Assembly: GCF_002813775.1 (NCBI RefSeq)
Contig: NZ_CP020370.1
Coordinates: 2,071,501 to 2,135,500 of the forward strand
DNA from: Candidatus Thiodictyon syntrophicum
GTDB taxonomy: Bacteria > Pseudomonadota > Gammaproteobacteria > Chromatiales > Chromatiaceae
Length of the DNA stretch: 64,000 bases
Direction of reading: 5' to 3'
Shown here: in pieces, positions 14,129 through 64,000 of the stretch
How positions within the stretch are numbered: the stretch's first letter is position 1
Layout: each line of letters begins with the position of its first letter
Made by a program: the position numbers and the translations under genes
The notes under the pieces: model-generated
What the model saw: the letters and a program-made list of their open reading frames with translations, nothing else
The model's database searches: none
What the model was told of the DNA's origin: nothing

Positions 14129-14263
14129 GTAACGAGTTAAGGACAAGTCAAACACAATCGTCGTTGTCGTTGTCGTTGTCGTAATCGGAGAAGCGATGCA
14201 CGAGAGAGTCCGGGGCGCCAGGATCGCCTCGATTACGACAACGACAACGACAACGACGCTAGT
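14129..14263. repeat. repeat family D (CGTTGTC arms with a leader)
   Basis: Leader GTAACGAGTTAAGGACAAGT (14129-14148), then (GTCGTT)n GTCGTAATCGGA, a loop with GAAGCGATGCAC and GAGAGAGTCCG, and the inverted arm CTCGATTACGACAACGACAA. The order matches the element at 31993-32157. Lies between the Rieske gene and the unknown gene at 13544. Confidence 0.85.
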
Positions 14264-14660
14264 CGAGCAGCGTGGTGCGCTTCTCGGTGAGGTACAGGGT
14301 GCCGTCGCGCTCCTGCACCCGCAGCCGGGTCAGCGACTCGCCCGCGCAGATCTCGCTCAGGCACTCGCCGGTCGTGGGTGCATAGGTGATGCCGTGCATG
14401 GAGCAGCGGATGGATTCGCCGGCGGCGTCGAAGACATGGCAGTGTTCGCAGTCCAATTCCTTGGGCATGTGCACGCACTGATTCAGATACCCATAGGCGA
14501 CACCGCGGAAGCGCACCAGGATCGCCTCCCGCGGGTCGCCGCGGTAGCGCACACGGAAGCGGTGCCGGCCCAGTTCCGCCAAGGCGGCGGACGGGCAGAT
14601 CGGGGCCGCGGTCCGGGGCAGCGGTGCGGACAGGTCCGCGCCCGGTGTCTCAGGCGCCAT
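14259..14660 (-). CDS. Rieske-type [2Fe-2S] protein of the nif cluster
   Basis: 133 residues. The Rieske ligands are clear: QCVHMPKEL (Cys-x-His) and, after a Cys/His-rich insert DCEHCHVF, RCSMHGITYAPTTGEC (Cys-x-x-His). No membrane anchor, so probably a soluble ferredoxin or an electron donor component. It overlaps the end of the upstream gene (14650) by 11 bases, which indicates co-translation with that nif-linked gene. The extra CEHCH motif in the cluster loop is unusual. Precise partner unknown. Confidence 0.85.
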   Translation of the reverse strand: MAPETPGADLSAPLPRTAAPICPSAALAELGRHRFRVRYRGDPREAILVRFRGVAYGYLNQCVHMPKELDCEHCHVFDAAGESIRCSMHGITYAPTTGECLSEICAGESLTRLRVQERDGTLYLTEKRTTLLD

Positions 14661-29095: not shown

Positions 29096-31951
29096 GTGTG
29101 GGAAGCGGCGGCGGAGGGCGAACAAGAGAACCCGGTGGGGCCGGTCGCGGCGGCGTCCGTGACGACGGACGCCGAGGCGGAGGCCTTGCGGCTACGCGCC
29201 CAACTTGGGGTTCTCCAGGAGCGGGCCCAGGCCCTCGACGACCGCCTGCGGGCGCAGGTGCGCAGCCGCTGGGTGGTCGGGGAGGGCGGCGGTGCGGCCG
29301 GGGTCGCCCCCAGCTTCATCAACGGCATCTTCGTCGGCGAGCGCTCCGAGGCCCCGGAACGGCAACTGCATATCCTGCGCGACCTGGCGGCGCTGAGTAC
29401 CTACTGCCTGCCGCTGCGTGGGATCGATGACGTGCAAGCCGGTCCCGGGATCGGCCGTCTCTATGTCCCATTGGCGACCGATCTGACCCTCGCGGAGGAC
29501 TTGGCCGCGCAGGTCCTGGCGGCGGCGGCGGACGGGGCCGCGCCCCCCTTTCCGGAAGCGGACCCCGGCGCGGAGCGGATCCCGGATCAGGCCCGGGCGC
29601 GTCACCTGAGCGCGTGCGAGGCGAGCATCCTGCGGCGTTCCCTGGTAATCCTGGGAGAGCCCGGCGCGGGCAAGACCACGCTCCTGGCCTTTCTGGCCCA
29701 CGCCCTGGCGACCGGCGACCGCGCGGCCCTGCCGGGCTGGCCGCAGCCCGAGTGGTCCTGTCTCCCGCTATTGATGCGGCTGCGCGATTTTGCGGCCTGG
29801 TTGGCCGAGTCCGGGGACCTGGCCGGCGCCGGGACGGCGACGAGCGACGCGTTGGTGTGGGGTTTTGTCCGCCATGAACTGGCCGAGCGCAACCTGACTT
29901 TCTGTCTGGGGGCGCTCGAGTCGGCGGTGCGCGGCGGGCGCGCGGTGTTGTTGTGGGACGGCCTGGACGAGGTGCCGCCGGGGGCCCTGGCGACGGTCCG
30001 CGAGAGCCTGCTGGCCTTCCGTGAGCGGGCTCCGGGTTGTCGCTATGTCCTCACCAGCCGGCTGTTGTCCTATTGCCGGCCGGAGCGGCGGTTGCCCGAG
30101 CCGGACTTTCCGGTCGTCTCGTTGCTCCCCTTCGACCGCGACCGGATCGGTCGTTTCGTCACCGATTGGTTCCAGGAATTGGGCGCCTGCGGCGACCTGC
30201 CCTGGGCGGAGGCGGAGCGCCTGGCTCTGCTCTTCCAGCAGGGGCTCGGCGAGGGGCACCTCACCCACCTGGCGGCCAATCCGCTGCTGCTCACACTCCT
30301 GGCGCTGGTCTTCACCCACCGCCGGGATCTGCCGACGGCGCGCGCCCAGGTCTTCGAGGCCGCCACCGGTATCCTGCTGGCACGCCTGGATGGGCCGCGC
30401 ACCGCGGGGGGGCCGCGCATCAGCGACCTGCTGCGCGAGGTCCATCGGGACCGCTGTGACCTGATCCGCTGGTGCGAGCGCCTGGCCATGCGGGTGCAAT
30501 CCAACAGCGAGCGCGGCCTGGAGCCGGGTGCCCCCGGACAGGTGGGGGTCGCCGGGGTCGGTGAGGCCGAGTTACTCGAGTCATTGCAGGCGCTGCACGC
30601 GCGGCGGGACCTGGAGTGGGCGCAGTCGCTGGTGGACCTGATCAAGCAGCGCGCCGGCCTGCTGCGCGAGGAGCGTCCGGGGGACTTCGACTTTCCGCAC
30701 CGCGCCTTGCGCGAGTATCTGGCCGGTTGTCAGCTGGCCCATGCCCCCGATTTCGCCGCGCAGGTCGCTGCCCTGGCCGTCGATCGCAGCGATTGGCAGG
30801 AGACCATCCGGCACGCGGTCGGCTTCCTGGTCCAAGGCCACCGCGAGTGCGCGCGCCCGCTCGCGCTGATCGAGCACCTGTGCCCCGCGGACGCCCCGGC
30901 GGACGACGCGGCCTGGCGGCGGGTCTGGCTGGCGGGCGAGGCGGCGCTCGAGCTCGGCGTCACCCGCGCCGCCGAGTCGCCGGCCGGCGCCCGCACCCTG
31001 GAGCGCGTCCGTCATCGACTGGCCGCCCTGGTGGAGGCCGGGCGGCTCCAGGTGGGTGAGCGGGTGGCGGTGGCCGCGGTCCTGGCGCGGCTCGGTGACC
31101 CGCGTTTCCATCCCCGGGGGCTGCATCTGCCGGTGCGCTATCGGGGCCAACGCGAACCCGCCTTGGGCTTGGTACGGGTCAGGCACGGCAGCTTAACGCT
31201 CGGCGGTCCCGCGGACCTGGAGAGTGCCCTGTCCAACGAAGTCGGCGGCGAGGGGCGCCTGGAACTGGACTATGCCTTCTGGATCGGCCGCTATCCGGTG
31301 ACCGTGGCGCAATTCCAGGCCTTCGTCGCGGCCGGTGGCTATGAACGGCGGGACTGGTGGCCGGATTTGGGGTGGGCCTGGTGCCGGGGGCAGCGGCGAC
31401 GCGAGCCCGAGCGGTGGTCGCACCAACGCCGCCAGGGCAATCGGCCGGTGGTGGGTATCACCTGGTTCGAGGCGCTCGCCTATGGTGTCTGGCTCGATGC
31501 CCAGTTACGCAAGCGTCACACCAAACTGCCGCGCGGCTATGGGCTGCGCCTGCCGACCGAGGCGGAGTGGGCACTGGCAGCGCGCGGCGGCCAGGGGCGG
31601 GTCTATCCCTGGGGAGGGGGTTTCAGCGCGGGCCAGGCCAATTGCATGGGCAGTGTCGGCGAGCCGTCAGCGGTGGGGACCTTTCCCCTGGGCGCGACCC
31701 CCGAAGGGGTCTTGGACCTGGCCGGCAATGTCTGGGAGTGGACCCTGAGCCGCTACCTGCCCTATCCCTATGACCCCGCCGACGGCCGCAACGATCCCCA
31801 GAGCAACGGGGCGCGGGTCCTGCGTGGGGGCTCCTACGACGCGGGGCCGCTGCGGGCCCGGACCGCGGCCCGGGCGCAGGCGCCGCTGGGCGAGGCGGCC
31901 CGGGATATCGGCTGCCGTCTGGTACTGTCGCTGGTGGATACGGGGGTGTGA
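29096..31951 (+). CDS. NACHT-type STAND ATPase fused to an FGE-sulfatase domain
   Basis: 951 residues from GTG 29096 (GAGAGGGCAGAGGC upstream). Parts: short N-terminal coiled coil (25-55); a small conserved region (70-150, SFINGIFVGE, RQLHILRDLA); NACHT ATPase with Walker A GEPGAGKTTLL (about 189-199) and Walker B VLLWDGLDEV (about 284-293); helical arm with FPHRALREYLAG (about 540); and a C-terminal formylglycine-generating-enzyme-like domain (about 690-945) with FWIGRYPVTVAQFQAF, GITWFEALAYGVWLD, RLPTEAEWALAARGG and AGNVWEWTLS. NACHT proteins of this layout act as threat sensors in bacterial conflict systems; the FGE fold may serve for recognition. No separate effector domain is visible and no partner gene is adjacent. 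Confidence 0.92.
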   Translation: MWEAAAEGEQENPVGPVAAASVTTDAEAEALRLRAQLGVLQERAQALDDRLRAQVRSRWVVGEGGGAAGVAPSFINGIFVGERSEAPERQLHILRDLAALSTYCLPLRGIDDVQAGPGIGRLYVPLATDLTLAEDLAAQVLAAAADGAAPPFPEADPGAERIPDQARARHLSACEASILRRSLVILGEPGAGKTTLLAFLAHALATGDRAALPGWPQPEWSCLPLLMRLRDFAAWLAESGDLAGAGTATSDALVWGFVRHELAERNLTFCLGALESAVRGGRAVLLWDGLDEVPPGALATVRESLLAFRERAPGCRYVLTSRLLSYCRPERRLPEPDFPVVSLLPFDRDRIGRFVTDWFQELGACGDLPWAEAERLALLFQQGLGEGHLTHLAANPLLLTLLALVFTHRRDLPTARAQVFEAATGILLARLDGPRTAGGPRISDLLREVHRDRCDLIRWCERLAMRVQSNSERGLEPGAPGQVGVAGVGEAELLESLQALHARRDLEWAQSLVDLIKQRAGLLREERPGDFDFPHRALREYLAGCQLAHAPDFAAQVAALAVDRSDWQETIRHAVGFLVQGHRECARPLALIEHLCPADAPADDAAWRRVWLAGEAALELGVTRAAESPAGARTLERVRHRLAALVEAGRLQVGERVAVAAVLARLGDPRFHPRGLHLPVRYRGQREPALGLVRVRHGSLTLGGPADLESALSNEVGGEGRLELDYAFWIGRYPVTVAQFQAFVAAGGYERRDWWPDLGWAWCRGQRRREPERWSHQRRQGNRPVVGITWFEALAYGVWLDAQLRKRHTKLPRGYGLRLPTEAEWALAARGGQGRVYPWGGGFSAGQANCMGSVGEPSAVGTFPLGATPEGVLDLAGNVWEWTLSRYLPYPYDPADGRNDPQSNGARVLRGGSYDAGPLRARTAARAQAPLGEAARDIGCRLVLSLVDTGV

Positions 31952-31992
31952 GGTCGTGCAGGGAACGCGGCCCTGCGGAACATTGCTCTAAG

Positions 31993-32157
31993 CGCCGTTG
32001 TCGTTGTCGTAATCGAGGTTAATCGTAGTGCCGCGGATTCTCTCGCACATCAAAGTGCATCGCTTATCCGATTACGACAACGACAACGATTACGGCAACG
32101 GCAACGGCAACGGCAACGAGTGGGTTTGTGTTTGATTTTGTCTTTGACTCGTTACTT
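31993..32157. repeat. repeat family D, long copy
   Basis: Read on the minus strand: leader GTAACGAGTCAAAGACAAAA (ending at 32154), CACTCG, (TTGCCG)n, TAATCGTTGTCGTTGTCG, core ATAAGCGATGCAC and GAGAGAATCCGCGGCA, then inverted arm CGATTACGACAACGACAACG (31993-32013). Same order as at 14129-14263, but with TTGCCG units mixed with TTGTCG units. It fills the gap between the NACHT gene and the hlyIII gene. Confidence 0.85.
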
Positions 32158-32161
32158 ATCC

Positions 32162-32859: not shown

Positions 32860-33840
32860 TCAGCCCGACAGACCGTGCGGGTGCGTTTCCAACCATTTGC
32901 GCAGGCGGTTGGAGTCACCCACCGGGCTGCGCTTGCCGGGCGAATCCAGGAGCACGATCGAGAGCAGCCGCCCGCCGATGACGGCGCGCATGACCAGACA
33001 GTGCCCGGCCTCGTTCACGAAGCCGGTCTTGCTCAGTTCCAGGTGCCAGTCAGGGCTTCTTACCAGCGGATTGGTGTTGCGGTACTGCAAGGTGCCCGCG
33101 TCGCCGTAGGGGTGGACCTCCATGGACGCGCTGGTGGTGAGCTCGCGGATCAGGGGATAGGCCGCGGCCGCCCGCGCCATCATCACGAGGTCCTCCGCGG
33201 TGGAGGTGTTGTTGCCATCCAGGCCGGTGGGGTCCGCGAACCGGGAGTCGAGCATCCCCAGCGCCTCGGCCTTGCGGTTCATGGCCGCCACGAAGATCGG
33301 TTTGCCGCCGGGGAAGGTGGTCCGCCCCAGGGCCGCAGCAGCGCGGTTGTCGGAGGACATCAGGGCGACGGCCAGTACCTCGCGCCGTTGCAGGGTGGCC
33401 GCCCGGTCGATGCGCAGGCGCGAACGGCTATGGCGCAGTTGGTCCCGGTCCTCCTCCAGGATCGTCAGGGGTTGGTCCAAAGGCACCGCGGAATCCAGCA
33501 CCACCATGGCCGTCATGAGCTTGGTGATGGAGGCGATGGGTCGCTGGTCGCGGGTCCCTTTGGCATAGAGGGCCCGGCCCGCCTCGTCCACCACCAGGGC
33601 CGAGGCCGAGCTGAGGCCTAGGCCCGGCGGGACCAGCTCGGCGATGGGGGGGCGGGGCGGCCGTTGCGGGGCCGGCGGCTGGACGATGACGGGGATCGGC
33701 GGCGCGGGCGCGGGAGTGTCCCCAGCGGACTGCGCGGCGACCTGGGCGGGGCGCGGCGGCACCAAGGCCAGGGCCAGCGGCAGCACCAGGGCCAGCGCCA
33801 GCGCCGGCAGGGACCAAGGGGTGCGGGGTTTCGATCTCAC
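32860..33840 (-). CDS. pbpG: D-alanyl-D-alanine endopeptidase (PBP7 type)
   Basis: About 326 residues. Serine peptidase S11 triad: SITK (SxxK), SSDN (SxN) and KTGF (KTG). N-terminal signal/anchor (LPALALALVLPLALALVPP) and a proline-rich linker precede the domain. Trims or cleaves cross-links in peptidoglycan. GTG 33840 is preferred (AAGGA seven bases upstream); an in-frame start at 33897 adds a polar stretch. Symbol given by family resemblance to E. coli PBP7. Confidence 0.9.
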   Translation of the reverse strand: MRSKPRTPWSLPALALALVLPLALALVPPRPAQVAAQSAGDTPAPAPPIPVIVQPPAPQRPPRPPIAELVPPGLGLSSASALVVDEAGRALYAKGTRDQRPIASITKLMTAMVVLDSAVPLDQPLTILEEDRDQLRHSRSRLRIDRAATLQRREVLAVALMSSDNRAAAALGRTTFPGGKPIFVAAMNRKAEALGMLDSRFADPTGLDGNNTSTAEDLVMMARAAAAYPLIRELTTSASMEVHPYGDAGTLQYRNTNPLVRSPDWHLELSKTGFVNEAGHCLVMRAVIGGRLLSIVLLDSPGKRSPVGDSNRLRKWLETHPHGLSG

Positions 33841-34020
33841 TGGGATATCCTTGCAGGACTGATGGCGCGGGTAGTGCGGCGCACCGGGTGAACCCACCCG
33901 GGCGGGTGAGCGGTGACGGGCGGTGCCGCGGACAGTTGCTATAGTATCCCGGGTTGCGCCGTGGGTTAAGCGGTGAATTTGCGCGCGGGGTGCGGTTGGC
34001 CGCGGGTCACGGGGCCGACC

Positions 34021-35073
34021 TCAGGCCTGTCCTTGCAGATAGGCGCGCAGTCCCAGCACGGTGTTGGGCGACACATCGAAGGGAGCAGGGGCCTCGAGGA
34101 GGGCATAGTAGCGGTCCGGGCGGGTCGGAAAGGGCTGCACGGGCACGCAGGCGAGGCACCAAGCCGCCGCGTCGAGCACGGCCTCGCCCTGCTCCTGCGC
34201 GAAGAAGGTGGCGGCCTGCCGCCGCTCCAGGCGCTCCACCACCGTCGGCGGGGCCCCCGCGATCCGCGCCATGGTGGCCTGCGCGGCGAGCGCGGCGGCG
34301 CTGAAGGTCAGCAACAGACGGCCCCGGCCGTGCTCGTCCACCAGCATGAAGCCGTCCAGCGGGTCGGCAATCACGTAATACTCGATGATGTCCAAATCCT
34401 CGCACAGGTGGGCGAAGAGGTCACAGAAGCCCGGGTCCTCCCAGTCCATGAGAATCTCGGCACGCAAGGCCTGGCGGACCAGGCGGGAGGCGTCGGCGAT
34501 GAAGGCCCGCTGATAGCGCGCAATGCGCTCGCGCAGGAGGCTGACGCAGTTGCGGGCGCCCTTAGGCAGGAAGAAGTCGATCAGGTCCTCGTTGAAGGCG
34601 GCGACCGCGTGCGCCTCGCTGGCCTGGCCGGTCAGCAGGATTTTCCGGCAGGGCAGGTGGGCGAGCCGTCGGCATAGTTCCAGGCCGTCCATCTCCGGCA
34701 TGTCGTAGTCCACCACTATGACACTTACAGGGTTGAAACGGTGCCGTCCAAAGACCCGCATCAACAGCATCGTCTTGTCCAGCGACAGCATCTGCTCGAG
34801 CTGCGGGTCAGCGAAGCGGCCCGTGTAACTGCTCCAGCACTCGACCTGGAGCTGGGTCTCCAACCGGCCCCGGGCGATATCGGTCAGCAAGGCCCCGGGC
34901 GATGCGTAACACGAGATGGGGAAGTTGGCGTTCAGGCCCGGCGGGAAGTATTTGAGAAAATTGGGATCATCATCGACGAACACGACTCGCGTCGGGTGAA
35001 AGAACGGCAGGCACCCGGTGTCCGGCGTCGGCGGACCCTTGAGGTGCGGCAAGGATTTCTTGTTGTTCAACAC
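34021..35073 (-). CDS. lqsR: LqsR-like response regulator of the hydroxyketone quorum-sensing locus
   Basis: About 350 residues from a GTG at 35073. Receiver domain: acidic pocket VFVDDDPNF (about 32-40), phosphorylation site Asp122 in VVDYDMPEMDG, and conserved lysine in FFLPKG. Between the acidic pocket and the phosphorylated aspartate there are about 40 residues more than in ordinary receivers. The C-terminal half (about 180-350: EYYVIADPLDGFMLVDEHG, YYALLEAPAPFDVSPNTVLG) is no known DNA-binding domain. It is divergent from lqsA and near lqsS, as LqsR is in Legionella. Start codon and exact orthology are less certain than the receiver itself. Confidence 0.75.
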   Translation of the reverse strand: MLNNKKSLPHLKGPPTPDTGCLPFFHPTRVVFVDDDPNFLKYFPPGLNANFPISCYASPGALLTDIARGRLETQLQVECWSSYTGRFADPQLEQMLSLDKTMLLMRVFGRHRFNPVSVIVVDYDMPEMDGLELCRRLAHLPCRKILLTGQASEAHAVAAFNEDLIDFFLPKGARNCVSLLRERIARYQRAFIADASRLVRQALRAEILMDWEDPGFCDLFAHLCEDLDIIEYYVIADPLDGFMLVDEHGRGRLLLTFSAAALAAQATMARIAGAPPTVVERLERRQAATFFAQEQGEAVLDAAAWCLACVPVQPFPTRPDRYYALLEAPAPFDVSPNTVLGLRAYLQGQA

Positions 35074-35414
35074 GGTATTGGCCCGCTTTTTGGCGTTCGT
35101 CGGGCGGATCTTACCATCGGACGGGCTGGCTCGTGTCGCTCGCCCCGCCTGTCTTTCGCGGGGTCCGCGGTCGAGCGCCGACAGCCGCCGCGCGGGTCGC
35201 CGCGCGGGTCGCTCGAAAAAAAAGGCCTGCGCACCTGATCGCGAGGCGTGCCCCGCGCCGCTTTCCTGTCTAGACTGTGTCCGGGGCCCTGGGCGCACCG
35301 CCCCGGTCCCAAGGTTCCAACCACTGCCTGCGAGGCAGTCCACACCGGAGCCGGGCGGGAAACCGCTGACCTCCTGTCCGTTGCTCCGATTCACGCAACC
35401 GACAGGACATCCCG
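35074..35414. other. divergent intergenic region lqsR-lqsA
   Basis: 341 bases between the start of the regulator gene and the start of the autoinducer synthase gene. It must carry both promoters. I see GC-rich stretches (GCCGCGCGGGTCGCCGCGCG) and a CTAGACTGTGTCCGG block but no site I can assign. Confidence 0.5.
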
Positions 35415-36755
35415 ATGACGACTAGAGCGCCCCGTTGCCTTCTTTCGCGTTCCTTCCCGCTCCCGCCCCTCACTGCTGCACGTATCGATCGATTCGAGGC
35501 TGAGATGGCTTATGCCGACACCACGGCCCGCTCGCTCGTGCTCGGACCAGCGCCCGCTCCGGGCGACATCAATCTCAGATCAAACGATTACCTATCCCTC
35601 GGACGCCACCCTGAACTCGTCGATGCCCAGGTAAAGGCACTGGTGGAAAGCGGGAACGGGGAGATGATGTCGGCGGTCTTTCTGAATCCCGGTAATCCGC
35701 AGTTTGATCTGGAGCGAAAGTTCGCCGATCTGCTCCATGCCGAGGGCGCTGTCCTATTCCAGTCCGGCTATCAAGCCAATACCGGTTTGCTGGAGGCTGT
35801 GGCCTGCCCCGGACTGCCGGTTTACATCGACCAGATGGCCCATGCGTCGCTGTATCAGGGCGTAATGATCGCGGGCGCCGACCTCAGGCCATTTCGCCAC
35901 AGCGATGTGGAACATCTGCTACGGCAGTTGCGCAGATATGGGCCGGGCATTATTCTGATGGAAACGGTCTACAGCACTGACGGCAGCCTGGGGCCAATTG
36001 CGGAGATAATGGATGCCGCCGAGGAGTTTGGGTGCATTTTGATTGCGGATGAATCACACTCGTTAGGCACCCACGGTCCCGGTGGTGCCGGCCTGGTGGT
36101 GGCACTCGGCCTTCAGGACCGGGTGCATTTTCGCACGGCCAGTCTGGCGAAGGCGTTCTGCGGGCGGGCGGGGCTGGTGGCCTGCCCCCGGCGCCTGGCG
36201 CCGTACCTCAGGTTTACGAGCGCGCCGAGTATCTTTTCAAGTGCCGTCATGCCCCACGAGTTGGTTGGCTTTGCCAGGACGATTGACATCGTGCAGCGGG
36301 ATGAATACCGTCGGGTCCGTCTCCACCGCAACGCCGATCGCCTGCGCTCCAACCTCGATGCGCTCGGTTACAACGTCTCGGCGAGTGCCTCACAAATCAT
36401 CGCCCTGGAGGCCGGAAGCGAACAGAGTGTGGTGCGGCTGGGACAGGCGCTGAACGCGCGCGGGGTCTATGGTTCGCCCTTCTTCGCTCCGGCTACACCC
36501 AAGCATCGCGCCTGTATCCGGCTGTCGGTAAACGCGGCGCTGGTCGATGATGATCTGGAGAGGATTACGGCGGTCTGCGGTGAGATTCGCGCAGCGGTGG
36601 GGTTGGCGGAGTGGGCTTCGACGCGGCGCAAGGGCCGCCGCCGAACGCCACTGCAGCGGGAGCCGGCGGGGGCCGGGGCGGGAGGGCATTTGCCCGTGGC
36701 CCAGGCAGTGCGGGATGAAGCGGGGGGCGAGACCGCGCTGCGCCAGGCGGCATAA
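35415..36755 (+). CDS. lqsA: alpha-hydroxyketone autoinducer synthase (LqsA/CqsA family)
   Basis: 446 residues. PLP-dependent alpha-oxoamine-synthase-fold enzyme: LRSNDYLSLGRHPELVDAQ near the start, QSGYQANTGLLEAVA, YIDQMAHASLYQG, the aspartate/histidine DESHSLGTHGPGGAG, and the PLP lysine in TASLAKAFCGRAG. The EMMSAVFLNPGNPQFDLE and SLYQGV features mark LqsA/CqsA and set it apart from KBL, BioF and HemA. It condenses an acyl-CoA with an amino acid on the way to the signal. A CqsS-type kinase lies next to it, which strengthens the call. The last 50 residues are Gly/Arg/Ala-rich and not conserved-looking. Confidence 0.9.
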   Translation: MTTRAPRCLLSRSFPLPPLTAARIDRFEAEMAYADTTARSLVLGPAPAPGDINLRSNDYLSLGRHPELVDAQVKALVESGNGEMMSAVFLNPGNPQFDLERKFADLLHAEGAVLFQSGYQANTGLLEAVACPGLPVYIDQMAHASLYQGVMIAGADLRPFRHSDVEHLLRQLRRYGPGIILMETVYSTDGSLGPIAEIMDAAEEFGCILIADESHSLGTHGPGGAGLVVALGLQDRVHFRTASLAKAFCGRAGLVACPRRLAPYLRFTSAPSIFSSAVMPHELVGFARTIDIVQRDEYRRVRLHRNADRLRSNLDALGYNVSASASQIIALEAGSEQSVVRLGQALNARGVYGSPFFAPATPKHRACIRLSVNAALVDDDLERITAVCGEIRAAVGLAEWASTRRKGRRRTPLQREPAGAGAGGHLPVAQAVRDEAGGETALRQAA

Positions 36756-36779
36756 GGCGACCGGGCGCCGCCCGGTCAG

Positions 36780-38099
36780 TCAATCCGCCGACGGCCGGGC
36801 GGGAAACCGCAGAATCATCTCGGTGAATTTGCCTGGAACGCTACGACAGCGGATATCCCCGCCGAAACGACGCATCACCGATTGACAAAAGTGCAGGCCG
36901 AGCCCGGTGCCGTTGGTCTTGGTGGAGAAAAAGGCTGTGAAAATTGCAGTCTGCAGGTCGCGCGCGATCCCCTGCCCATTATCGCGAAAGTGCAGACAAT
37001 GAACCTGGTGGCCAGGGACGGCCCAGATCCTGATTTCGCCGCTGTCGGTACGACCGGCGGCCTGGATTGCATAGATGCTGTTTTTCAATAGATTGAAAAC
37101 CAGATGGTGGAAGAGTAACGGGATGACCTGGATGGGCACGCTCGTCGTCCGCGAAATCCGCAGCCACTGCCGTTGGGCCTGGTCTCGGAAGGGATACCGA
37201 TCAAGGGCTTCAGTGGTCAGGGTCATGGCGTCCACCGCCCGGGATTCATCGGCACCAAAAGGGCGCAGTCCGGCGTTGGCAAGCGCCAGGTCGATGATCA
37301 TGAAGGCGTGCTCGACTTCCCGGCCGATCATCGTCGGCGCCTCGGCCAATAGTTCGCGCTCCGCGCCCCCAATCGGTGTATGGTCGTCGGCGCTTGCCTG
37401 TGCCTCGTCGAGCGCGAGCAGCCGCGGAAGTTTGCCGCCGACGATGTGCGATGCAGCCTCGATCGTCATCAATGGGGTTCGCAGTTCATGGGCGATATGG
37501 CTGCCGAGGGCGATGGCGGCAGCGATCTTTGCGCGCTTCTCCCGCGCGAGTTCGCGATTGAAGAGGCTGGTGGTTACGACCGCGAACAGGTAGACTGGAA
37601 ATTGCTCAGCGAGTTGGGGCCAGGGCACGGGCTGGATACTGGTAAGGGAGTATGCCAGGAACGCGGCGCCGATGCCAAGGGAGAGCATTAAAATGGCATT
37701 GAGCACGTCGGAGATCAAGAACACCATCACGATTCCCGCCAACAACGAACCTGACCACACCGTGTTGGCCTGATTGTGCAGAAGCATGAAGGTGAAAAAG
37801 AACGGCGAACAGAGCAAAATGGAGAACCACCAGTAGCCGGGGACGTAACGCCGCGCCGCCGGTGGCCAATACTTGATGATCAGTGCGGGAGCGGCAACGC
37901 ACATGCCGCCGATCCGGATGGCCAGGTTTTCATACGGTTGAGGAAACAGATAATTCCAAACGAAATAAAAAAAGGGGAAGCCGAAAACGCCGAACAGTCC
38001 GAACAGCAGCAGCTTGGGTTCGGCATCTTCTGCTGACTCCACGATGGATTGCACGAGCCGACGATAGAGTTGATGGAGTTGCTTGACCAATTTCAGCAT
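36780..38099 (-). CDS. lqsS: CqsS/LqsS-type hydroxyketone sensor histidine kinase
   Basis: 440 residues. Six membrane spans in the first 170 residues; the segment FGFPFFYFVWNYLFPQPYEN is very close to the opening of Vibrio CqsS. Then HisKA with HIAHELRTPL (phospho-His), a gap segment, and HATPase with N box HLVFNLLKNSIYAIQ and G boxes DNGQGIA and GTGLGLHFC. The final MRRFGGDIRCRS also matches CqsS. Unlike Vibrio CqsS there is no C-terminal receiver, so phosphate should pass straight to a separate regulator such as that at 34021. Convergent with lqsA, stops 24 bases apart. Confidence 0.93.
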   Translation of the reverse strand: MLKLVKQLHQLYRRLVQSIVESAEDAEPKLLLFGLFGVFGFPFFYFVWNYLFPQPYENLAIRIGGMCVAAPALIIKYWPPAARRYVPGYWWFSILLCSPFFFTFMLLHNQANTVWSGSLLAGIVMVFLISDVLNAILMLSLGIGAAFLAYSLTSIQPVPWPQLAEQFPVYLFAVVTTSLFNRELAREKRAKIAAAIALGSHIAHELRTPLMTIEAASHIVGGKLPRLLALDEAQASADDHTPIGGAERELLAEAPTMIGREVEHAFMIIDLALANAGLRPFGADESRAVDAMTLTTEALDRYPFRDQAQRQWLRISRTTSVPIQVIPLLFHHLVFNLLKNSIYAIQAAGRTDSGEIRIWAVPGHQVHCLHFRDNGQGIARDLQTAIFTAFFSTKTNGTGLGLHFCQSVMRRFGGDIRCRSVPGKFTEMILRFPARPSAD

Positions 38100-38478
38100 G
38101 ACTTTCCCCGGGGGTGGACCGCACGCAGGACCTGTCCCGAATGAAGGGCGCAACGGCGACGGGGCGCGGCTGCCGGCGACACTGGCACCCCGGTTCGGTC
38201 AGTCGGCCGACGGGGCGAGGCCGGAACCCTGGCGCGCGCGTCGATTCCGGCGCAAGGATAGCGCGGGTGCGTCGTCCGCACCGCTTCCACTCGGGCCCCG
38301 AGTTCCTGCCGCCCCGCAAATCCGGTTACGATGCCGCCACTCGTGCGCCCGGCGTCAGGCCCGGCGACCGCCGGTCCGCCAAGGCTACCCCCGGCGGTCA
38401 ATCGTTCGGTGCGCGGGTTCGCCCCCGGTTCCCGTCACCCAGTCCCTCAACCCCCTGCGCGACAGCTTCAGCCAACCA
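38100..38478. other. intergenic region lqsS-recJ
   Basis: 379 bases between divergent lqsS and recJ, GC-rich. It is open in the recJ frame but the translation is basic and unlike RecJ. No repeat or recognised site was found; it should hold both promoters. Confidence 0.4.
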
Positions 38479-40197
38479 GTGACCCCAACCCAGATCCACC
38501 GCGTCCCGACCAATCCCACTGCGGCTCCACCCGCCAACCCCGCGGACCTGCTGCGCCAACTTTATGCCTGCCGCGGCCAGGCGGAGTCCGAGTCGGAGTT
38601 GGGGCTCGCCGGGCTTGCGCCCTATCAATCCCTGGCGGGACTGGAGGCGGCGGTGGCGCTGCTCGCCGCCAACCTGGGCGCGGGTGGCTCGATCCTGGTG
38701 GTCGGCGACTATGACGCGGACGGGGCGACCGGCAGTGCGCTCGCCGTGCTCGGGTTGCGCGCCCTGGGCGCCCCCGCGGTGTCCTATCTGGTACCGAGTC
38801 GCTTTGCCTACGGTTACGGTCTGAGCCCGCCGGTGGTGGACGCGGCGGCGGCGCTCGCGCCTAAGCTCCTGATCACCGTGGACAACGGCATCGCCGGTGT
38901 CGCCGGGGTGGAGCGCGCCAATCAACTCGGCATCCCGGTGCTGATCACCGATCACCACCAGGCCGGGGCGGTGCTGCCGGCGGCGGCGGCCATCGTTAAC
39001 CCCAACCAGCCCGGCTGCGGTTTCCCGAGCAAGCACCTGGCAGGGGTCGGGGTGGTCTTTTATGTGCTGGTCGCCCTGCGCGCCCAACTGCGGGCAGCGG
39101 GCTGGTTCAGCGCCGCGCGACCGGAGCCGAATCTGGCCGAGTATCTGGACCTGGTGGCCCTGGGCACGGTGGCGGACGTGGTGACGCTCGATCGCAACAA
39201 CCGCATCCTGGTCGAGCAAGGGCTGCGGCGTATCCGTGCCGGCCGCTGTCGGCCCGGTATCCGCGCCCTGCTCCAGGTGGCGGGGCGGGACCCGGCGCGG
39301 GCCACGGCGACTGATCTCGGGTTCTTCGTCGGCCCCCGGCTCAACGCCGCCGGGCGGCTCACCGAGATGACCCTCGGGGTGGAGTGCCTGCTGTGCGACG
39401 AGCCCGCCCGTGCCCTGGACCTGGCCGGTCAGCTCGACGGGCTCAACCGGCAGCGCCGCGAGATCGAGGGCACGATGCGTGAGCAGGCCGAGACCCTGGT
39501 GGAGCGCATTCAACTGCGCGGTGACGACCTGCCGCCGGCCTTTTGTCTCTATGGCAAGGGCTGGCACCAGGGGGTGTCCGGGATCGTCGCCGCCCGCATC
39601 CGGGAGCGCTATCATCGGCCCTGCATCGCCTTCGCGGACGCCGGGGAGGGGGTCCTGCGCGGCTCTGCCCGCTCGGTGGACGGCCTGAACATCCGCGACG
39701 CCATCGATTTGGTGGATCGGCGGCGGCCCGGGCTCATCGAACGCTTCGGCGGCCACGCCATGGCGGCGGGGCTGACCCTGCGCACCGCGGCCCTGGCCGA
39801 TTTCCGCGCCGCCTTCCGGGAGGCGGTGCGCGAGCAGCTCGGCGAGGCCCCGGTGGTACGCCAGATCCGCTCCGACGGTGAACTGCCCGCGCGGCTCATG
39901 AACCTGGAGACCGCCGAGGTCCTGCGTCTGGGCGGACCCTGGGGCAAGGGGTTCCCCGAACCCCTGTTCGACGGCGAGTTCGAGGTGGTCCAGGCGCGCC
40001 TGGTGGGTGAGCGGCACCTGAAGCTGCGGCTCAAGCCCGAGCGCGGCCCCTTTCTCGACGCCATCGGTTTCGGACTCGGTGAGCGGCTGGAGCAGGCGCG
40101 CGGCTGCGTGCGCCTTGCCTACCGGTTGGATGTCAATGAATATAGGGGGGAACGCGCCCCCCAACTGATCCTGGAGCACCTGCAATCGACCACCTAG
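38479..40197 (+). CDS. recJ: single-stranded-DNA-specific exonuclease RecJ
   Basis: About 572 residues. DHH-family motifs in order: VVGDYDADGATGSA (motif I), ITVDNGIAG (II), ITDHHQAG (III, DHH), and VALGTVADVV (IV); the DHHA1 domain follows with GWHQGVSGIVAARI and FGGHAMAAGLTL, and an OB-type end. 5'-3' exonuclease of recombination and mismatch repair. The start is unsure: GTG 38479 gives a normal N-terminus but has no clear ribosome site. Its 3' end overlaps the probable start of darP. Confidence 0.94.
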   Translation: MTPTQIHRVPTNPTAAPPANPADLLRQLYACRGQAESESELGLAGLAPYQSLAGLEAAVALLAANLGAGGSILVVGDYDADGATGSALAVLGLRALGAPAVSYLVPSRFAYGYGLSPPVVDAAAALAPKLLITVDNGIAGVAGVERANQLGIPVLITDHHQAGAVLPAAAAIVNPNQPGCGFPSKHLAGVGVVFYVLVALRAQLRAAGWFSAARPEPNLAEYLDLVALGTVADVVTLDRNNRILVEQGLRRIRAGRCRPGIRALLQVAGRDPARATATDLGFFVGPRLNAAGRLTEMTLGVECLLCDEPARALDLAGQLDGLNRQRREIEGTMREQAETLVERIQLRGDDLPPAFCLYGKGWHQGVSGIVAARIRERYHRPCIAFADAGEGVLRGSARSVDGLNIRDAIDLVDRRRPGLIERFGGHAMAAGLTLRTAALADFRAAFREAVREQLGEAPVVRQIRSDGELPARLMNLETAEVLRLGGPWGKGFPEPLFDGEFEVVQARLVGERHLKLRLKPERGPFLDAIGFGLGERLEQARGCVRLAYRLDVNEYRGERAPQLILEHLQSTT

Positions 40198-40857: not shown

Positions 40858-41047
40858 CCCCGCTGAAGCCCCGAAGGGGCGTCACATACCAGCCCAGGGC
40901 AACGCCCTGGGTATGAGGTATGAGTGAGCCTAGCCCTGAAAGGGCGTGACATAAAGGTCTGCGCCACTATGTCACGCCCTTTCAGGGCTAGGCCGATTAA
41001 ACTTTCCCAGGGCGTTGCCCTGGGCTGGTATGTTCGACCCCGTTGGG
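40858..41047. repeat. repeat family H, multi-module array
   Basis: Modules CCCCGAAGGGGCGTCACATA, CAGCCCAGGGCAACGCCCTGG (first 20 bases shown by type), and CTAGCCCTGAAAGGGCGTGA occur, then the same modules in inverse orientation (TGTCACGCCCTTTCAGGGCT; CCCAGGGCGTTGCCCTGGGC), ending near GACCCCGTTGGGGTC. The single site at 10488-10567 has two of the modules. It fills the gap between darP and the DUF4124 gene. Confidence 0.8.
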
Positions 41048-63870: not shown

Positions 63871-63936
63871 AAAGCCCTACCCGCACACGCCGCGGCATCG
63901 ACAGGGCAGAGACCCCGACGTACTCCCGTACTAAGG

Positions 63937-64000
63937 AACGGTTCACGAATAAGTTAAACAATTCCATTGGGCTGCACGATGGCGTCGTTGTCGTTGTCGT
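63937..64000. repeat. repeat family D, partial copy at window edge
   Basis: Leader-like AACGGTTCACGAATAAGTTA-AACA followed by GCACGATGGC and (GTCGTT)n running off the window. Resembles the leaders at 14129 and 32795. Confidence 0.65.

Follow-up and report, generated by a model that had tools for sequence, protein, structure and literature searches.

Does a purple sulfur bacterium carry a complete alpha-hydroxyketone (AHK) quorum-sensing circuit, and do the genes of that circuit share one history? These questions are raised by a 64,000-nucleotide stretch (hereafter the window) of the Candidatus Thiodictyon syntrophicum Cad16T chromosome, in which lqsR, lqsA and lqsS are all clustered inside positions 34021-38099 (Table 1). 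The Cad16T genome comprises three contigs totalling 7,738,984 bp, the first of which spans 6,837,296 bp. A preliminary description of the window had claimed a complete Lqs/Cqs-type locus; all three open reading frames were found where it had placed them, and a synthase, a kinase and an LqsR-family regulator stand together with their key residues kept. These sequence features make a functioning quorum-sensing circuit of the Lqs type the most likely role of the locus. Our overall reading, to which we assign a probability of roughly 0.82, is that Cad16 possesses a working Lqs-type AHK circuit in which lqsA and lqsS were exchanged together after the lineages of Cad16 and the congeneric genome G061 had parted, with lqsR retained.

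The three genes and the proposed circuit

LqsA scored 481.5 bits against NF005526 ('alpha-hydroxyketone-type quorum-sensing autoinducer synthase'), above the NCBI cut-off of 428, in agreement with the earlier call of a CqsA/LqsA-type pyridoxal phosphate (PLP) synthase. Its scores against the models for bioF (243.8 bits), glycine C-acetyltransferase (KBL; 208.9 bits) and ALAS (183.1 bits) each lay under the model's own cut-off. The closest solved structures are the CAI-1 synthase (CqsA) entries 3hqt (E = 1.4e-91) and 2wk8 (E = 1.8e-91), and Lys246 aligned to the PLP-binding lysine of CqsA, Lys236 (Lys236/Lys258 are named in PMC3376566). Phylogeny had been proposed as a check, and in a tree of 72 rows Cad16 LqsA fell on the CqsA/LqsA side, with support of 100/99, apart from four distant superfamily rows; these four scored below the NF005526 cut-off and are untyped, presumably BioF/KBL-like sequences. 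The tree and the conserved-column counts exclude 25 of the 96 synthase hits, namely 20 duplicate locus ids, two loci on contigs present twice (L134 and L138), a partial one (L084), the window itself (L177) and L077 (G796). At columns conserved in at least 95% of the other rows, Cad16 keeps 59 of 65 in LqsA (66 other rows), 37 of 43 in LqsS and 25 of 27 in LqsR. LqsA also bears a basic C-terminal tail of ~45 aa, which is present in the G061 remnant as well. No relative of the Cad16 synthase was found in the viral contigs searched. As a separate observation, L070 (G235) is a second synthase-like gene that scored 371 bits, under the cut-off, and sat next to the CqsA/LqsA clade on a deep, long branch.

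The alignment of LqsS revealed a membrane domain of the CqsS/LqsS type together with kinase motifs (His204, Asn336/Asn340, Asp373/Gly377 and Gly399/Gly401; HATPase_c, E = 1.2e-18), and its phosphorelay residues are invariant in a kinase alignment that took in 23 kinases from the kept LqsR loci. The segment FGFPFFYFVWNYLFPQPYEN, previously likened to Vibrio CqsS, aligned with the sensors of six f184 genomes, which are presumably Vibrionaceae, as well as with many other loci. The description of a six-span kinase fared less evenly: the AlphaFold model (mean pLDDT, a per-residue confidence score, 81.6; predicted template modelling score 0.48) has six N-terminal helices of spanning length, whereas in a plain hydropathy scan no more than four separate N-terminal places came up to the threshold; six spans are probable. 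Vibrio CqsS-type sensors carry a C-terminal receiver and measure 681-695 aa in the six f184 genomes, whereas LqsS has 439 aa, no receiver family among its Pfam matches and a separate LqsR beside it. LqsS being without a receiver, the circuit is therefore of the Legionella form, as had been expected. The Vibrio Cqs system and Cad16 are alike in their synthase family (E = 1.4e-91) and in their membrane sensor domain. The column of Vibrio CqsS residue 170/175, which holds Phe in Cad16, was considered as an indicator of signal tail length and not used, the choice of column being tentative and the helix being described in PMC3285556 as poorly conserved between CqsS and LqsS.

LqsR of Legionella pneumophila (6sy9) matched the regulator over nearly its full length (E = 3.1e-41, residues 32-354), and a fold search with the predicted structure (mean pLDDT 77.8) ranked 6sy9 first, which bears out the receiver-type regulator described before. 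With numbering from the GTG start, Asp122, Asp34/Asp35, Thr148 and Lys171 do not vary across 34 sequences including Cad16; by analogy with receiver families, we take Asp122 to be the phospho-acceptor and Asp34/Asp35 the acidic pocket. This structure alignment comprised 33 of the 80 kept relatives, leaving out L085 for a stop in the translated range, and Cad16 LqsR is 25-34% identical to the aligned relatives. PADLOC returned no match for LqsR or LqsS.

In the circuit that we propose, LqsA, with PLP on Lys246, would join a fatty acyl-CoA to a small amino donor, which in Vibrio is S-adenosylmethionine, yielding an enamino- or hydroxyketone. This lipophilic signal would bind the LqsS membrane domain and switch the kinase/phosphatase state at His204, phosphate would pass from LqsS to Asp122 of the separate LqsR, and the LqsR-type output domain (degenerate, GGDEF-like) would alter gene expression. 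PMC10653808 likens the LqsR output domain to a degenerate diguanylate cyclase with no activity detected. For Cad16, we infer the signal chemistry, the phosphotransfer and the exchange by recombination discussed below.

Distribution, gene order and related systems

A search for the three-gene block in other Chromatiaceae, suggested by the preliminary description, yielded no further carrier: a synthase over the NF005526 cut-off occurred in 1 of 195 genomes of the order (Cad16 itself), in 8 of 369 of the class and in 16 of 398 of the phylum. These samples overlap and each counts the own genome; the 195 genomes of the order are a subset of a larger group, and no more than 8 candidates were scored in each. 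None of the seven Thiodictyon congeners has a synthase over the cut-off. The kind of locus is already known, since lqs clusters occur across Proteobacteria; its scarcity in the order and its gene order are the unusual part. Specifically, lqs clusters are reported from Alpha-, Beta- and Gammaproteobacteria (PMC10653808), and Nitrococcus and Burkholderia were already named as carriers in 2012.

Among named genomes, 319 relatives of LqsR were found and the loci of the best 80 were fetched; the following counts refer to these 80. All three genes lie within the fetched stretch in 47 loci, one of them in a metagenome-assembled genome named Halorhodospira (L102); the full set may therefore not be unique to Cad16 among phototrophic sulfur bacteria. 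The other 33 do not show all three genes in the stretch, some of them on account of contig ends. In the usual order, seen in 44 of the 80, lqsS and lqsR run in tandem and face lqsA; this is a habit rather than a defining trait. Cad16 does not follow it, as its lqsA sits between lqsS and lqsR (S-A-R), an arrangement found in 0 of the 80 loci, including the 47 with all three genes, and in 0 of the 4 three-gene loci from the class-level sample (the 80 include one of these four). In seven further loci of the 80 (L100, L107, L121, L130, L143, L144 and L147), an LqsR-family regulator faces a kinase-like gene with no synthase match in the fetched stretch, which is a different LqsR-family partnership. 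LqsR-type regulators also occurred on 12 plasmid records, which makes plasmids a possible route for such genes; none is the donor, because all 12 are <60% identical.

With Legionella Lqs, Cad16 has in common a synthase, a receiver-less kinase and a full-length LqsR in one locus, as well as the fold and residues of LqsR. In contrast, the order in Legionella is S-R-A, hdeD lies between the genes in L. pneumophila where Cad16 has no intervening gene, and a search of the Cad16 genome detected no second sensor of the LqsS kind, the 31 other matches spanning residues 182-439 only. The Jqs system of Janthinobacterium sp. HH01 is likewise environmental, with three neighbouring genes (locus tags jqsA, jqsS and jqsR) including an LqsR homologue, but belongs to a betaproteobacterium and drives violacein; both cqsA and lqsA in part restore its jqsA deletion (PMC3566124).

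Several findings count against a working circuit. Cad16 LqsA sits on a long branch in the 72-row tree (1.49 changes per column against a median of 0.26) and has no resolved neighbour there within the synthase family. Furthermore, few if any rows stray more often from the conserved columns than Cad16 does, with 6 departures out of 65 in LqsA and 6 out of 43 in LqsS. The same branch, tree position and departures would suit a CqsA/LqsA relative making some other, non-signalling alpha-oxoamine, with the kinase-regulator pair sensing something else. We consider this decidedly improbable, given that LqsA exceeds the cut-off of the curated AHK synthase model, that its gene is linked to lqsR and to a CqsS/LqsS-type membrane domain, and that the three genes stand together in more than half of the fetched loci.

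The site in sister genomes and the history of the cassette

The genes flanking the cassette, a dac-like and a recJ-like gene, allow the site to be followed through the genus. In G107, G150 and G158 the two are adjacent, their matched parts lying 352-407 bp apart, and lqs genes gave no match; upstream of recJ in G125 and G023 (15.0 and 3.5 kb fetched) neither dac nor lqs was matched. G061, whose flanks are mostly 90-95% identical to those of Cad16, holds a broken cassette at the same site in the same order and orientation: its lqsR is frameshifted and has lost the first two thirds, its lqsA has apparently suffered two internal deletions, and its lqsS is reduced to 136 C-terminal codons, stop-free and with the ATP-binding motifs kept, together with a fragment of the final span. 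All that was found in G053 is the end of lqsR, beside unmatched sequence at a contig edge. This pattern suggests that there was probably a single arrival of the cassette, in the common ancestor of Cad16, G061 and G053, and that Cad16 alone has kept it whole.

Because the seven congeners lack a synthase over the cut-off and the G061 copy is broken, the Lqs system is dispensable in the genus, a further point against our reading. It is then conceivable that the Cad16 locus is itself dead or dying, before any visible frame break, an idea in keeping with the broken or partial copies in two congeners, the seven congeners without the synthase and the long branch of LqsA. Yet the frames are intact (350, 446 and 439 aa) and retain their catalytic and phosphotransfer residues, and between Cad16 and G061 the first and second codon positions of lqsS are half as divergent as the third (0.30 vs 0.60), so the alleles were constrained for much of their history. 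We therefore regard a dying locus as rather improbable.

The comparison of Cad16 with G061 points to two histories within the locus. At four-fold degenerate sites, divergence is 3-15% in nine flank genes and 15% (8/53) in the lqsR C-terminus, and rises to 53-68% in the lqsA pieces (7/12, 10/19 and 7/13) and lqsS (26/38). For this one genome pair, the signal and receptor genes are thus far more diverged than the regulator and flanks at the same site. The change is sharp on the left, where identity to G061 is 95-97% at 35306-35385, 73% at 35386-35425 and 59% beyond; on the right, the flank alignment (blastn) picks up again at 38286. Identity by region is.90 for LqsR,.57 for LqsS and.65 for LqsA. 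As a control, we compared 1326 pairs of 52 loci, taking one genome per species: the 13 pairs with an LqsR region at.85-.95 have LqsS at least at.79 and LqsA at least at.82, and where LqsS is at.54-.60 (141 pairs), LqsR ranges over.19-.54. No case as extreme was found among the fetched three-gene loci (54 loci; 52 loci).

Base composition follows the same division. In Cad16, lqsR (.866) and three flank genes (.859-.891) have a higher G+C content at third codon positions (GC3) than lqsA (.711) and lqsS (.714); the G061 values are.898 (lqsR remnant),.736 (lqsA) and.706 (lqsS). The difference between lqsR and lqsA/lqsS amounts to +.15 in Cad16, against a mean of -.013 (standard deviation.028, range -.082 to +.054) in 54 other loci, near relatives included. 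The preliminary description had mentioned neither this contrast nor the uncommon gene order or the broken G061 copy. The simplest account, as read from these sequences, would be that one of the two lineages exchanged its linked lqsA-lqsS pair for a long-diverged allele originating in a lower-GC pool, lqsR and the site being kept.

Fast neutral decay of the G061 copy, which is indeed broken by deletions and frameshifts, might be thought to explain the divergence. This is very unlikely, to the point of being hardly credible, because the adjoining lqsR remnant, though likewise broken, has diverged little compared with lqsA and lqsS (15% at four-fold sites); moreover, the 136-codon lqsS piece has stayed open with its ATP-binding motifs. 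The main rival dispenses with exchange altogether and supposes an ancestor with two lqsA-lqsS modules beside one lqsR, of which Cad16 and G061 lost different ones. Consistent with it, the lqsS pieces of the two genomes are nearest each other (56% identical, the next row 44%), the C-terminal tail is found on both synthases and GC3 is low in both alleles. It requires tandem modules, however, and neither Cad16 nor G061 has a trace of a second module at the site, where place, order and orientation are the same; on balance we find it unlikely, if worth keeping in view.

The exchange itself is tempered by several observations. The evidence comes from one genome pair, with pieces of 40-136 codons and few four-fold sites. 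Within the intergenic region that the pair shares, identity drops to 53-62% at 35146-35225, and the right edge is patchy, with 93% at 38290-38329 followed by 45%, 75% and 78%. The middle lqsA pieces of the pair are 67% identical, only slightly closer than the 63% of the next locus. Finally, lqsA/lqsS lag lqsR by >.15 in 8 of 140 whole-protein pairs (Legionella loci); because of this mild lag, some of the faster divergence of lqsA/lqsS is general, with no pair near the size seen between Cad16 and G061.

If lqsA and lqsS were indeed exchanged, the synthase and receptor of Thiodictyon could form a swappable, pherotype-like module, in which long-diverged alleles drawn from an outside pool supplant both genes together while the regulator and the site stay, a generalization that we put forward tentatively. 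The S-A-R order, which makes neighbours of lqsA and lqsS and leaves lqsR on the outside, would help such an exchange. In the agr and comQXP pherotype loci of Gram-positive bacteria, a variable signal-receptor block lies by a conserved regulator, the signals are peptides and several intact alleles exist. Cad16 resembles them in having a variable signal-receptor block beside a conserved regulator and differs in that one allele is intact (Cad16) and one broken (G061). By analogy with peptide pherotypes, it is attractive to suppose that the swap may have changed the signal. Ralstonia PhcX, an LqsR-family regulator like that of Cad16, offers a converse: PMC10653808 infers that lqsR switched partners in evolution and joined the Phc system there, whereas in Cad16 lqsR stays and the synthase-receptor pair changes.

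Non-coding segments, neighbours and significance

Table 1 Features of the lqs locus and its surroundings (window positions)
Feature	Position	Strand	Basis and remarks
Whole lqs cassette	33985..38460		Between dac-like and recJ-like genes; edges approximate
dac-like flank gene (D-alanyl-D-alanine carboxypeptidase-like), synteny marker	32860..33897	-	Putative name, own reading
lqsR-family response regulator, 350 aa, receiver and LqsR-type output domain	34021..35073	-	GTG start 35073; 6sy9 match
Intergenic region between divergent lqsR and lqsA, with G+C-rich foldable lqsA leader	35074..35414		Fold test, G061 identity
Putative exchange segment, lqsA and lqsS	35400..38285		Left edge near lqsA start; right edge blurred; near-identical flanks
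lqsA/cqsA-type PLP-dependent autoinducer synthase, 446 aa, PLP lysine Lys246	35415..36755	+	NF005526, CqsA alignment, tree
Perfect 7-bp stem with 3-nt loop between convergent lqsA/lqsS ends	36760..36776		Direct reading; terminator-like without T run
lqsS-type sensor histidine kinase, 439 aa, no receiver	36780..38099	-	ATG start 38099; alignment, AlphaFold model
recJ-like flank gene, synteny marker	38473..40197	+	Putative name, own reading; likely start near 38473

The lqsA leader (35266-35430) contains several strong hairpins (fold z -2.33; 3 of 200 shuffles as low), and its part at 35306-35385 is the one that is 95-97% identical to G061; it may be a regulated leader. No Rfam family was found at E up to 1 in 33800-38600, and a repeat search of the cassette returned nothing beyond weak two-copy families and imperfect inverted pairs. 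A promoter/terminator scan gave 2 promoter-like hits against a shuffle mean of 0.7 and 4 terminator-like hits against 3.7, and was not used. The recJ-like frame as called (from 38083) overlaps the lqsS start and is probably an over-long call, because the matches of its relatives mostly begin at ~38473.

Elsewhere in the window, a 951-aa protein encoded near the lqs locus (29096-31951, +) combines a NACHT-type ATPase with a C-terminal FGE-sulfatase domain and has a weak PADLOC match (E = 6.4e-4). An Acido-Lenti-1 RNA lies at 40867-40911 (-; 43.4 bits, gathering score 37). The segments 14129-14273, 31992-32158 and 63931-64000 each match one or several places in G061, at ~72-88% over most of their length, and resemble repetitive extragenic palindromes or miniature inverted-repeat transposable elements. 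A LuxI-family (PF00765) match at G000:C1:1926604-1927158 (L179) was set aside since it scores better as a GNAT/FeeM-like acyltransferase.

Among the papers listed, we found by title no published account of the Cad16 lqs locus in the open-licence literature, and the words 'quorum' and 'autoinducer' are absent from the main texts of PMC5944118 (the Cad16T genome), PMC6413534 and PMC13116554. PMC7947596 suggests once that quorum sensing might account for a concerted sulfide response, and parts of acyl-homoserine-lactone sensing are mentioned for the Chromatium okenii genome (PMC6374484). According to PMC6413534, the Cad16 phototroph accounts for about a quarter of the bulk inorganic carbon fixed in a model stratified lake.

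With Cad16, the list of organisms that have a complete hydroxyketone circuit gains an anoxygenic phototroph, from an order in which our search otherwise found none. The organism is reported to form aggregates (Peduzzi 2012), and the question of signalling in the chemocline is made testable with one gene. If the exchange is true, hydroxyketone dialects could arise by swapping maker and receiver together while the output is kept. Pherotype-like systems are familiar for peptide signals; if the synthase and receptor of Thiodictyon do form a swappable module, such a system would exist in the small-molecule quorum sensing of Gram-negative bacteria.

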